A DNA stretch of 21,081 bases, taken from positions 1 to 21,081 of the IMG/VR virus record IMGVR_UViG_3300020182_000220. One strand, 5' to 3'. The notes under the pieces are model-generated. The model saw nothing but the letters and a program-made list of their open reading frames with translations. It had not been told where the DNA came from and did not search any database. Below, piece by piece: positions 1,232 to 8,361 of the stretch (the first letter of the stretch is position 1; every line of letters starts with the position of its first letter). This DNA is from a virus. The position numbers and the translations under genes were made by a program.

Positions 1232-3220
1232 CTAACCCCTTCTACTACTGTGAAATAAAAGAGCTGCAGAGTATAAATCTAAATCATGCTCTATCGAAAC
1301 TTCCTCTACTCCCTCGATAGTTCCCAAGAGAGATATTTCTTCTGCATCCTTAATGCATGAAATTAACTTGTCCCCCCACAACTCCTCGGGACTTGAAATA
1401 ACAACAGATTGACACAATTCATCAATCATTAACTTTTCTGAACTATTTAGTCTTTTTTTCTTAATCTTAGACCTCATTGCTGCATACCCATCACTCCTCA
1501 ACCCTTCTGTGGAATAAATCACTTCCTGTATGTTTTTTCTCGAATATAAACTGGGGTCACTTGCAGAGCTTTTCTCTTGTGGTACCCCAGATGTACCTAT
1601 AGGTCTGCCAACTTCCTGCTTAGGTTTTTGATCTTGACTTACTTCCGTACCAGGCTGCAAGACCATTGGGACTCCACCAACTATAGGGTTGTACATTCCA
1701 GTTTTTCTTTGTTCTATATATTTCTTTTGAGCTTCTGCCATGCCATCCGGCTTTGGATAAGAACCCTTCTCGAGAACGTCCATTCCTTGCTCTGGAGTGA
1801 TAATGCCAAGCTCCATTAGTCTTGTTGCGACCCTTTGGAGCTGGACCTCATCTTTTATGTCTGTTTGTTCAAACTTAACTACTGGATATTTTCTAAATCC
1901 CAAGTTTTGGCAAATCATCTTAACCTGAGGTTGCAGAAAATCATGAATAAACGCGTTCCTAGACTCCTCCAACCTCTCTAGGAAAATCTTAGCTTTAACC
2001 TGAGTATTACTGTATCGTTCGTCGCCAACTATAACGTTCTGAAGTCCGTCCCGAATATCGCTATTAATGACCTCATACTTTGAAGGCCCAACGACCTTTC
2101 CAATATCAGGTATAACAAAATTAGCTTTGGTTGTATAATCGCTAACCAACACTCTACCGACGCTCTCGTTCTTAAAAAGGCTCTGCATGGCTTCCATGTT
2201 TTTTGGATTAATACCCCCTTTTTCTGGCTCCGCGCCCATAGTTATTAAGAGTATAACATTCTCGATAGTCCTACATATAGCTTGGTCTATTTTTTTAAGC
2301 TCTAGCTTGAAATTAATGTCATCCAATACGGGATAACCAAAAGGAATAGCGAAAGGTTCGTAATCCTGTTTTTTGTAAAAAGAATAAACAAGATGAGCTG
2401 GATCTAGTTTCACCTTGATTCCGTCTTGATTATAAGCTCCAGACTTAATCTTCTCCTTTATTAGTGGGTCTAGAGCTTCAAAAACCTGTTCATCATAAGC
2501 TGTCTTAGGACTACGCAACCTTTCTATATCGTATTCAGATAAAATTTTCTCATAAACTCCTGTCTCAAAAGATGACCCTCTAGATGCCACAATATCATAA
2601 GGGTTAAGCAGTATATATCTAACGGGCAATTTTCCAGGTTTTAGAGCTATTGAGGATCCATAAACCTTAGTTAGGTTATCAAAGTCGGATTTGGCAAATT
2701 TACCATCAACTCTATACATAAAGATATTTCCGCTTCTGTAATACTCCCTAAAATATTGATCCTTCAAATTCCACAAATTAATCCTCTCAAACCACTTGTA
2801 AACAAAATCTCTTGAATTCTTAGTTCCTCCCTCTAGGTAAATATTAGAATTGGCAAACTCAGACATTACATCTATGGCGTTCCTGAAAACAGCTATATTA
2901 GCGTAAGCCTTTTGGCACAACTCTATAGAATCTCTAACATTAGCTCCGTCCTCACCGTAAGAATACGGCAATAACCCCCCTGCTATATTTGAAAACCTAT
3001 GCTTCTTGGCGGACTTGTGTGCGTAATTCCTCCTGGACGCCCCACTATCCGCTCCAGATTGAGCTCTTGAGTAGCTAGCGTTAGACTCCTCATAATAAGG
3101 GTCCCCAGAGGAGCAGGGCTGAATCGAGGGGACCTCCTTTTCAATTGAATCTTTACCCCTTGACTCATTATCGAACTTTTTCCAATACTTCGACTTCTTT
3201 ACGTATTTCCTCTTGCTCAT
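1232..3220 (-). CDS. Phage portal protein
   Basis: A 662-aa protein with the overall pattern of a tailed-phage portal: a low-complexity basic N-terminus (about residues 1-75), then a core with RDSIELCQKAYANIAVFRNA (mobile helix leading into the clip/wing region), FREYYRSGNIFMYRV, and PVRYILLNPYDI. The stem/crown part includes RLMELGIITPEQGMDVLEKG, very close to the ELGIxTPEE motif common in portal C-terminal regions. About 110 further residues after the Pro/Gly-rich linker near 530 form a helical tail. Portals form the dodecameric head vertex through which DNA is packaged and ejected. The ATG at 3218-3220 is fixed by a class B (late-type) promoter element 14 bp upstream. The next gene starts 3 bp after its stop. 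Terminase and major capsid genes are not in the window. Confidence 0.85.
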   Translation of the reverse strand: MSKRKYVKKSKYWKKFDNESRGKDSIEKEVPSIQPCSSGDPYYEESNASYSRAQSGADSGASRRNYAHKSAKKHRFSNIAGGLLPYSYGEDGANVRDSIELCQKAYANIAVFRNAIDVMSEFANSNIYLEGGTKNSRDFVYKWFERINLWNLKDQYFREYYRSGNIFMYRVDGKFAKSDFDNLTKVYGSSIALKPGKLPVRYILLNPYDIVASRGSSFETGVYEKILSEYDIERLRSPKTAYDEQVFEALDPLIKEKIKSGAYNQDGIKVKLDPAHLVYSFYKKQDYEPFAIPFGYPVLDDINFKLELKKIDQAICRTIENVILLITMGAEPEKGGINPKNMEAMQSLFKNESVGRVLVSDYTTKANFVIPDIGKVVGPSKYEVINSDIRDGLQNVIVGDERYSNTQVKAKIFLERLEESRNAFIHDFLQPQVKMICQNLGFRKYPVVKFEQTDIKDEVQLQRVATRLMELGIITPEQGMDVLEKGSYPKPDGMAEAQKKYIEQRKTGMYNPIVGGVPMVLQPGTEVSQDQKPKQEVGRPIGTSGVPQEKSSASDPSLYSRKNIQEVIYSTEGLRSDGYAAMRSKIKKKRLNSSEKLMIDELCQSVVISSPEELWGDKLISCIKDAEEISLLGTIEGVEEVSIEHDLDLYSAALLFHSSRRG

Positions 3221-3225
3221 CTAAT

Positions 3226-3234
3226 ATGATACAC
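3226..3234 (-). promoter_or_regulatory. Class B (T4-late-like) promoter for the portal operon
   Basis: Read on the minus strand this is GTGTATCAT, with its first G exactly 14 bp before the portal ATG. The same GTGTA-at-minus-14 arrangement precedes the genes at 3313, 8379 and 20044 (and at 15 bp for 13767). If it acts like the T4 late element TATAAATA, transcription would start on the A of the ATG. There is no Shine-Dalgarno sequence between it and the gene. Confidence 0.55.
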
Positions 3235-3235
3235 A

Positions 3236-3281
3236 AAAGTTAAAGCAAAGTCTAATTAAAGTCAAAGTTAACTTTAACTTT
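3236..3281. repeat. Inverted/palindromic repeats in the divergent promoter region (candidate operator)
   Basis: A 10-bp inverted repeat (AAAGTTAAAG at 3236-3245 and CTTTAACTTT at 3272-3281) encloses further AAAGT-type copies (around 3247-3251 and 3259-3263) and a perfect 12-bp palindrome AAAGTTAACTTT at 3264-3275. The block lies between the minus-strand portal promoter and the plus-strand promoter of the 58-aa gene. It could be an operator read by a phage or host regulator; no such protein is identified here. Confidence 0.4.
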
Positions 3282-3298
3282 CCGCCAATTAATACAGT

Positions 3299-3307
3299 GT
3301 GTATATA
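3299..3307 (+). promoter_or_regulatory. Class B (T4-late-like) promoter for the 58-aa gene
   Basis: GTGTATATA begins 14 bp before the ATG at 3313, the same distance as in four other copies (counting 15 bp at 13752). A sigma70-like TATAAT also overlaps at 3306-3311, but it is too close to the ATG to give a transcript containing the start codon. No ribosome binding site is present. Confidence 0.5.
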
Positions 3308-3312
3308 TAATC

Positions 3313-3489
3313 ATGTCAGAAGAAAAAAGAAAAAGGTGTTCAGTCTCCACCTCTCGAGGGGAAACTGAGGGTACCATAATCAGCGAATACGAAGAGGTTG
3401 GCGGTCCTGACGATGGAGCTATTTTTGCAACAATAGAGCTAGACAATGGCCAAACAGTGACGGTTAAAATATTAACGCCAGAAGAATAA
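3313..3489 (+). CDS. 58-aa protein of unknown function
   Basis: A short reading frame starting MSEEKRKRCSV and ending KILTPEE. The N-terminus is basic; from about residue 17 it is acidic and strongly beta-like (TEGTIISEYEEV, then AIFATIELDNGQTVTVKIL), reading like one small beta-barrel or OB-like domain. It has no signal peptide or membrane segment. Support for it being real: it has its own class B promoter exactly 14 bp upstream, it fills the space between the divergent control region and the LamG-like gene, and its stop is followed by the next class B element 6 bp later. I do not recognise the family. Divergent location from the portal and late-type promoter suggest a minor virion or assembly protein (inference). 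Confidence 0.6.
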   Translation: MSEEKRKRCSVSTSRGETEGTIISEYEEVGGPDDGAIFATIELDNGQTVTVKILTPEE

Positions 3490-6862: not shown

Positions 6863-7961
6863 AACAAAAGAAGTAGAAACAACGGATCAAATTTCTAAAT
6901 TTTTATCAGACAAAGATAACAAAAAGTACCACTACAACTTCCACAATGCCGAAGATTACAAAATATCAAGCGGAAGCTTAAACCTAGATATTGCACTAGG
7001 CGGAGGTTTGCCAAGTGGAGCCCATAGATTCACAGGTATTAATGAAGGAGGTAAAACTAGCTGCGCGATGACTTTTGCAAGAAACTTCCAAAAACACTTT
7101 GGCAAAAAAGGTATGATAATATATATCAAAAGCGAGGGAAGAATGAGCAAGGAAATGATTGAAAGAATGGGTATAGACACGGATCCACAAAAATTCTTTG
7201 TATTTGACTGTAATATTTTCGAGAAAGTTTTTGAACTTATTAGAGAGCTCGTTTTTGAGAACGAAGATGACAAAAAGTACATGTTTATAATAGATAGCGT
7301 TGACGCTCTTTGCAGAGTTGGTGATATAAACAAGCCCTTCGCAGATTCTGAGCAGGTAGCTGGCGGAGCGTTGATCACATCAGTTTTCCTGAAGAAAATG
7401 GTTTTGCCCATCACCAAAATGGGGCACACAATGATACTTACATCTCAAGTAAGGGTTGAGGTTGCAACGAACCCATATGCAGCTAGAGGTGGGCCCAAGC
7501 AGAAACAAGCTGGAGGAAACGCAATAAAACATTACGCTAATTTTATACTAGAATTCGAAGAAAGGTATACCTCAGATTTAATTTTCAAAAACCCTACGGC
7601 GACAAAGCTTGAAGAAAAAGGGAGGCCAATAGGTCACTACTGTAAGATAAAATTCAGAAAGAGTATAAACGAAAGAACAGGATCAACAGCTAGGTACCCA
7701 ATAAAATACGGAGAGAAGGACGGAAAATCAGTATGGAGGGCTAGAGAAATATTAGATATGTTATACTTGTTTAACCTTATAGAAAAAAAGGGGGCTTGGA
7801 TTTCTGTTTCAGAAGATCTAATTTCAGAAATAAAATCAAAAAAACTAGAGATCAACGACAAGTTTCAAGGCGAGCTTAGGTTAATAGAGTTCCTAGAAGA
7901 CAATGCAGAGTTGTCCGACTTCTTATATGAGGATTTTAAAAAGTTAACAAATGCGCTTTAA
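6855..7961 (+). CDS. uvsX: UvsX/RecA-family recombinase
   Basis: A 368-aa RecA-fold ATPase that would form filaments on ssDNA and promote strand exchange in recombination-dependent replication and repair. Walker A is GINEGGKTS (residues 61-69), the catalytic Glu region IKSEGRMS gives E94, Walker B is MFIID (143-147) followed by SVDAL, then MILTSQVRVEV (193-203) and GGNAIKHYANFILEF (220-234), the L2/ATP-cap part of RecA/UvsX proteins. Length is between bacterial RecA (about 350) and T4 UvsX (391). All arginine codons I noted are AGA/AGG. It overlaps the gene before it by 8 bp and the nuclease after it by 11 bp, making one early operon from the promoter at 6495. A weak GAGG lies about 13 bp upstream of the ATG, one of the very few purine-rich sites in the window. 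Confidence 0.9.
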   Translation: MSKTKEVETTDQISKFLSDKDNKKYHYNFHNAEDYKISSGSLNLDIALGGGLPSGAHRFTGINEGGKTSCAMTFARNFQKHFGKKGMIIYIKSEGRMSKEMIERMGIDTDPQKFFVFDCNIFEKVFELIRELVFENEDDKKYMFIIDSVDALCRVGDINKPFADSEQVAGGALITSVFLKKMVLPITKMGHTMILTSQVRVEVATNPYAARGGPKQKQAGGNAIKHYANFILEFEERYTSDLIFKNPTATKLEEKGRPIGHYCKIKFRKSINERTGSTARYPIKYGEKDGKSVWRAREILDMLYLFNLIEKKGAWISVSEDLISEIKSKKLEINDKFQGELRLIEFLEDNAELSDFLYEDFKKLTNAL

Positions 7962-8361
7962 CACGCTACAAGGCTCACAAAGAACAGTTAAAAAAGCGAA
8001 AAAGTACTTAATAGACTGGGAGGGGCCAAGTAGGAGTAAAATACAATTTGCGGTCAAGCAGTTTTTAAAAAAATATTGGACAAGCCATATAGTGTTTGAA
8101 GAATTTCCCGTAGCAGGAACAAAACTTTCCTTAGATTTTTATAATGCTAATAAAAAGATAGCTGTGGAGGTTCAGGGCAGGCAGCACACAAAATACGTAC
8201 CATTTTTCCATGGGGGTAATAAAATAAACTACCTAAACCAACTCAAGAGAGATCAAGATAAATTTAGATTCTGCGACATGAACAATATCAAACTTGTCGA
8301 AGTGTATGAAGGAGAGGAAGCTTCCGAAAAACTTTTCGAAAATTTTGGAGTTATACTGTAA
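7951..8361 (+). CDS. Vsr/DUF559-like PD-(D/E)XK endonuclease
   Basis: A 136-aa protein with the compact nuclease core of the Vsr/DUF559 type: SLDFYNANKKIAVEVQGRQH gives D62, E73, Q75 and H79, followed by LKRDQDKFRFCDMNNIKLVEV (R100, D101, K104), which corresponds to the helix and last strand of the fold. The active-site Lys of PD-(D/E)XK is Gln here (EVQ), as is usual in this subgroup. It likely cleaves DNA with Mg2+; a branched-DNA or repair-type substrate is inferred from its place in the recombinase operon. The N-terminal 50 residues are basic and could bind DNA. It overlaps uvsX by 11 bp. It is too small and lacks an extra DNA-recognition domain for an obvious homing enzyme, but that alternative is not excluded. 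Confidence 0.7.
   Translation: MRFNTLQGSQRTVKKAKKYLIDWEGPSRSKIQFAVKQFLKKYWTSHIVFEEFPVAGTKLSLDFYNANKKIAVEVQGRQHTKYVPFFHGGNKINYLNQLKRDQDKFRFCDMNNIKLVEVYEGEEASEKLFENFGVIL

Follow-up and report, generated by a model that had tools for sequence, protein, structure and literature searches.

The window analyzed here is the whole of IMG/VR record IMGVR_UViG_3300020182_000220, a stretch of 21,081 bases from a virus. In it, a 92-bp region (positions 3221 to 3312) separates a 662-amino-acid (aa) gene on the minus strand (1232 to 3220), the ATG of which is the complement of 3218 to 3220, from a 58-aa gene on the plus strand (3313 to 3489) that has no assigned function and is 59 and 62% identical in loci L002 and L004. 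Each gene is preceded by a putative late-type promoter element with a GTGTA box, GTGTATCATATTAG-ATG on the minus strand (3221 to 3234) and the divergent GTGTATATATAATC-ATG on the plus strand (3299 to 3312). “Class B” and “late-type” are labels from an earlier note on this DNA, and the promoter role is putative. Between the two elements lies an array of six boxes (3236 to 3281), comprising AAAGT at 3236, 3247, 3258, and 3264 and ACTTT at 3271 and 3277. A 10-bp inverted repeat has the arms AAAGTTAAAG on the left (3236 to 3245) and CTTTAACTTT on the right (3272 to 3281), and the central dyad is the 12-bp palindrome AAAGTTAACTTT (3264 to 3275), which has a single exact copy in the window record. 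The earlier note had described two class B elements facing apart, each exactly 14 bp from its ATG, with the inverted repeat, the palindrome, and several AAAGT copies between them; the placement of these elements, each of which starts with its GTGTA box 14 bp before the ATG, is correct to the base, and all of the repeats are present as claimed.

That the minus-strand gene encodes a portal protein had merely been asserted in the earlier note, and three lines of evidence now back the assignment. The 662-aa window protein had no Pfam or PHROG match at an E value of 0.001, but PHROG 16240 (“portal protein”) was matched by 7 of 19 family members at E ≤ 0.1, with a best value of 1.4e-5 and a value of 0.026 for the window's own protein. 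A structural model of low confidence (mean pLDDT, 56.5) was compared with solved portals by Foldseek, with a best E value of 1.1e-5 at probability 1.00; all 18 matches at E ≤ 0.001 were portal, portal-vertex, or neck structures. The model resembles the portals of phages G20c, P23-45, and T4, a likeness that at this pLDDT is supportive rather than precise. Finally, among 18 records searched for the large terminase, its match ends upstream of the portal match by no more than 80 nt in 13 and by no more than 1.1 kb in 4 more; in one record, G008, it lies about 10 kb away on the other strand. Together, the fold, the PHROG matches, and the adjoining large terminase support a portal-like identity for the predicted product of the 662-aa gene.

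Other phage genes in the window encode a UvsX-like recombinase, a DnaB-like helicase, a primase, and a ribonucleotide reductase, and an HNH/homing-endonuclease-like open reading frame (7951 to 8361) directly follows the UvsX-like gene. Directly before the terminase gene in another locus (L042:2579-3154 and L042:3139-4068) are a 2OG-Fe(II) oxygenase-like gene and a gene for a protein with a C2H2 zinc finger and an ERCC4-type nuclease. No relatives of the portal were found in 50,697 phage records at an E value of 1e-5, and terminase matches in the same records were 21 to 27% identical (30 listed among 64). Portal relatives were found in assembled-genome contigs at 10 loci, in bins named for Halobacteriovorax, Neomarinimicrobiota, Verrucomicrobiales, Patescibacteria, Rhodospirillales, Flavobacteriaceae/Flavobacteriales (four loci), and one unnamed bacterium. 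We dropped host assignment from these bins, as their names disagree and binning of phage contigs is unreliable.

The portal protein was used to fetch IMG/VR loci, and in almost all of the best 80 of at least 591, AAAGT/ACTTT boxes followed by a GTGTA box lie upstream of the portal gene. These loci and the window gave 68 rows after the removal of 12 duplicates and of L058, a contig that begins inside the gene. Within 75 nt upstream of GTGTA, the number of boxes per row ranges from two to eight, with four or more in 65; the others are L053 and L069 (three each) and L005, which is cut by a contig end. Neighboring boxes are commonly spaced 6 to 8 nt apart, and their order and orientation vary between genomes. 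Removal of near-copies from the 68 rows left 44 non-redundant arrays, in 33 of which the last ACTTT starts at −5, −6, or −8 from GTGTA, placing the proximal box 0 to 3 nt from the promoter element; it is farther away in L031 and L057 (21 nt before GTGTA) and in L038 (27 nt before it, with the same array in L039 and L042). The dyad form AAAGTnnACTTT occurs 26 times in the 44 arrays, with TA at its center in 19 cases and CG in 3. The exact palindrome AAAGTTAACTTT is absent from G001 despite the array there, and a second copy in G004 (at 32488) is isolated, with no other box within 200 nt on either side. The portal promoter element itself is GTGTAWNATA-like. An outward-facing second GTGTA box, at a varying distance from the array, is present in the window, L002 to L004, G034, and G035. 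The divergent setting described in the earlier note is not essential to the array; most of the relatives that were read have it behind the terminase gene.

The repeat cluster beside the portal gene is not a product of chance. It is the densest AAAGT/ACTTT cluster in the window, with six boxes in 70 bp and three in the next best, and when the 60-nt window array was shuffled 20,000 times with dinucleotides preserved, six boxes never arose (shuffle mean, 1.36). The 44 non-redundant arrays hold 228 boxes, compared with a highest total of 72 in 1,000 shuffle sets, or a mean of 5.2 per 60 nt compared with 1.2 in shuffles. The earlier note had allowed that the repeats might be unconserved in relatives and equally common by chance in A/T-rich sequence; the shuffles, the conservation, and the linkage to the portal described below all speak against this.

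Linkage was also evident in a search that did not use the portal. A scan of IMG/VR DNA with the pattern AAAGTYRACTTTNRACTTTN{4,8}ACTTT returned at least 120 loci, and all of the 120 listed are portal-linked. In 115 of these, the start of a portal gene lies no more than 200 nt away on the same strand; the array was read on the opposite strand, beside a portal, in L177, L245, L253, and L030, and the contig ends in L195, yet the next codons are those of the portal N terminus. A single cluster of at least five boxes per 66 bp, at the portal, was found in 11 of 12 array-clade records (the window, G001, G002, G004 to G009, G034, and G035), and the twelfth, G003, has a four-box array at the same place. 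No cluster of that density was found in four sister contigs. Looser four-box stretches occur elsewhere in G001 (two), G002 (three), G003 (one), and G004 (one).

The GTGTA box has a wider distribution than the array. It is a general gene-start box in G001 to G003, with GTGTAA seen 27 times against 2.2 expected in G001 and 12 against 1.3 in G003; in G004 and G005, GTGTA was not among the top upstream words. Among 120 genes with a GTGTA box in the window and G001 to G009, the preceding 60 nt held no AAAGT/ACTTT box in 88, one in 19, two in 4, and four or more in 9. The last nine are eight portals and the window's divergent 58-aa gene; the G006 and G007 portals were missed by the rules of that count, and the dense clusters in those records are still at the portals. 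In the records examined, no other operon carries the array, and thus there is no sign of a regulon. The array is at the portal in G008 although the terminase gene is far away, and it is kept in the window, L002, L003, and L005, where the genes after the portal depart from the usual head-gene order. Because it is retained despite a moved terminase gene or changed downstream genes, the portal gene, rather than the head operon or the terminase, appears to be the target, a pattern that is also compatible with a DNA site travelling with the portal.

The earlier note had suggested comparing the region among relatives, and this comparison revealed a feature of one clade. The pooled portal-fetched sets comprised 321 sequences, 314 of them with a start that could be read and 110 nt of preceding sequence, which formed 168 clusters. 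One rule served for all groups: every box in the 90 nt preceding the start was counted, and a few of those counted fall in the terminase end or beyond GTGTA. Four or more boxes were present in all 75 core-clade clusters and, as scripted, in 26 of 30 clusters of the L263 subgroup. The start had been set too far upstream in L384, L389, and L393, each of which has five boxes after correction, and L357 has three exact boxes and a one-base variant. The array therefore precedes the portal in 105 of 105 clusters of the window's clade (101 as scripted, three with corrected starts, and L357 with its three exact boxes). None of the 63 sister-group clusters reached four boxes in the 90 nt before the portal start, while 59 of them keep the GTGTA box; over all 168 clusters, GTGTA was found within 60 nt of the portal start in 161 as scripted.

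In a tree of 58 portals, 36 array rows and 22 no-array rows were split by one branch with support of 100/100 (with a long-branch warning and a midpoint root). Because the GTGTA box is common to both sides of the split, it is more likely that the array was gained than that it was lost. The split is a single evolutionary event, and any correlation with it counts once. In part of the L344 sister group, AAAGT overlaps the promoter box (AAAGTGTAAT) at portal starts, and it is possible that such an overlapping AAAGT was the seed from which the array grew.

We postulate that the block is a portal-specific operator array on a phage late-type promoter, bound by a putative, probably phage-encoded protein, and we consider this reading reasonably probable. 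Such a protein would be an oligomer that recognizes AAAGT half-sites (ACTTT when read on the opposite strand) and spans the central dyad AAAGTYRACTTT and the flanking boxes, and the flanking direct repeats beside the late-type promoter would also be bound; binding would set the timing or the amount of portal made. We infer all three components: the promoter role of GTGTA, the binding of a protein to the boxes, and the effect on portal expression. The boxes keep their content and their nearness to the promoter box but not their arrangement, a combination that fits an oligomeric binder. The suggestion in the earlier note that the repeat block binds a regulator gains support, as the array is conserved, in most cases directly adjoins the promoter box, and occurs specifically at the portal gene. 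The sequences upstream of genes are enriched for TTGACA in G001 and G002, and this word is not among the top ones in G003 to G005, so the hosts seem to differ, and for this reason the binder is likelier to be phage encoded than host encoded. As to the sign of control, we slightly and only tentatively favor repression or dose limitation, since the GTGTA box serves without an array in sister phages and the proximal box would fall within the stretch occupied by RNA polymerase; activation by the array is almost as likely.

An alternative hypothesis is that the array is a unique packaging-start (pac) site, bound by a small-terminase-like protein, and that its place beside the portal reflects the clustering of packaging genes. 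The presence of just one dense array in each long contig (11 of 12 records), in most cases directly after the large terminase gene, would suit this idea, as would a conserved, predicted all-helical protein of 353 aa encoded near the terminase. The HK97 small terminase is among the weak Foldseek matches of that protein (rank 25; E value, 3.1; probability, 0.77), none of which reached E ≤ 0.001, and a second structural look covered mainly its long helices. However, 9 of 11 sister records without the array also encode the helical protein, there is no need for a packaging site to sit 0 to 3 nt from a promoter box, and the array remains beside the portal where the terminase gene has moved away. The array is also internal in long contigs, which gives no fixed genome end, a point that leaves headful packaging unaffected. 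On balance, we consider a pac site unlikely. A replication origin, in which the boxes would be iterons for a replication initiator and the GTGTA transcript perhaps a primer, is likewise unlikely. The occurrence of just one A/T-rich cluster of repeats in each genome, next to a promoter-like box, is compatible with an origin, and excerpts of a source on T4 describe transcript-primed origins in that phage (PMC3016281), but we identified no initiator and saw no GC-skew switch at the array in five contigs (5-kb steps), a measure that is confounded by gene direction and weak in phages.

It is very unlikely that the repeats act as RNA, as a hairpin or terminator in the transcript from the terminase gene. 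Some arrays fold well (z scores of −3.27 in the window, −3.27 in L075, and −3.09 in L009), but z was between −1.5 and 0.13 in 5 of the 8 arrays folded, and the predicted folds differ between arrays. Moreover, the order and orientation of the boxes vary between genomes, and the genes on either side of the window array diverge, so that a terminator is not needed there. Both the packaging-site and the origin readings, which with an enhancer role were the other options of the earlier note, are weaker than the operator reading.

If the array is an operator, its binder could be the portal itself. In this scheme, a conserved basic N-terminal tail ([KR].Y.K.S.YW) would read AAAGT, and unassembled portal would shut off its own synthesis. 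All 105 tail clusters have the array (three of them with corrected starts, and L357 on the strength of three exact boxes), and each of the 63 clusters without the tail lacks the array; this co-occurrence is weak evidence because it reflects one evolutionary split, and we regard autoregulation as improbable. In G034, a second protein (L504 18576-19373) ends in KKKKRKYTKRSDYWKKKESK plus six residues, the same basic motif, and its gene has no array. The shared motif may be a peptide recognized by a shared partner.

A sigma-like protein (L042:752-1531 in G001), encoded near the terminase, matched Pfam Sigma70_r2 with an E value of 1.4e-4 and 22.0 bits, below the cutoff of 24, and is present in all of 13 further records. 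The same phage encodes another, different sigma-like protein (L088:5896-6510), which weakly matched PHROG 351 (E value, 8.9e-4) and, among the records compared, occurs only in the array clade. The gene content of G001 was compared with that of 11 array-clade records and a sister pool of incomplete coverage, and ten of the candidates without a sister match were scanned; nothing ties any of these regulator candidates, including L088:5896-6510, to the boxes.

The T4 late promoter element is an 8-bp, TATA-type sequence with the spelling TATAAATA. This string is found within 60 nt upstream of 0 of 227 genes in G001, 1 of 240 in G002, 0 of 85 in G004, 0 of 79 in G005, and 0 of 20 in the window; G003, with 4 of 116, is the sole count that points the other way. 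Excerpts on T4 late transcription describe promoters with a TATA element and no upstream or −35 element, and a gp45 that is not site specific (PMC2988020). The putative GTGTA promoters are like those served by gp55, gp33, and gp45 in that one short element, roughly a helical turn away from the start, is used at many genes and on both strands (PMC2988020), and the array phages also encode the protein with the weak sigma-region-2 match near the terminase. They differ in that the portal element is not a TATA box, in that GTGTA at the portal is so near the ATG that it would leave little or no leader, and in the conserved repeat array, for which the T4 late promoters, as excerpted, have no upstream counterpart (PMC2988020). 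The T4 protein DsbA has A/T-rich sites at two late promoters, which, unlike the portal array, are bound with low affinity by the product of a non-essential gene and form no repeat array in the excerpts available (PMC2988020). Of the 38 gene-start sites listed for G001, 27 have 9 to 15 nt between the end of the GTGTA box and the ATG, with little room for a leader or a ribosome-binding site, and late transcripts of these phages may be leaderless or nearly so.

Excerpts on T4 middle transcription describe MotA boxes as single (a/t)3TGCTTtA sites 12 ± 1 bp from the sigma70 −10 element of nearly 60 promoters (PMC2988021). The likeness to the portal array is that of phage elements with a CTT core, sited upstream of a −10 element and recognized by an activator of the phage (PMC2988021); the difference is that the boxes described here have an ACTTT/AAAGT core, number two to eight in both orientations, and occur at essentially one promoter per genome. 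Phage Mu Mor at Pm, in the available part of its source, is similar in that a phage activator dimer binds 5-bp inverted repeats upstream of one promoter, but it uses one 16-bp element centered at −43.5 of a sigma70 promoter (PMC4390567) in place of many boxes, the proximal of which usually adjoins GTGTA. The portal site thus resembles the T4 late and MotA middle promoters in kind and is a member of neither class. A literature search, with most subscription journals outside its coverage, found no description of an element combining GTGTA with a repeat array; the string AAAGTTAACTTT was found in one paper, on ribosome stalling, in the part of it available.

Each phage head has a single portal ring of twelve subunits, and to our knowledge, how phages hold the portal supply to one ring is poorly understood. 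The proposed operator would be a dedicated, clade-wide control site for the portal, in a large group of uncultured phages without a portal relative among 50,697 phage records, and the array would offer a short DNA bait with which its regulator may be fished out.
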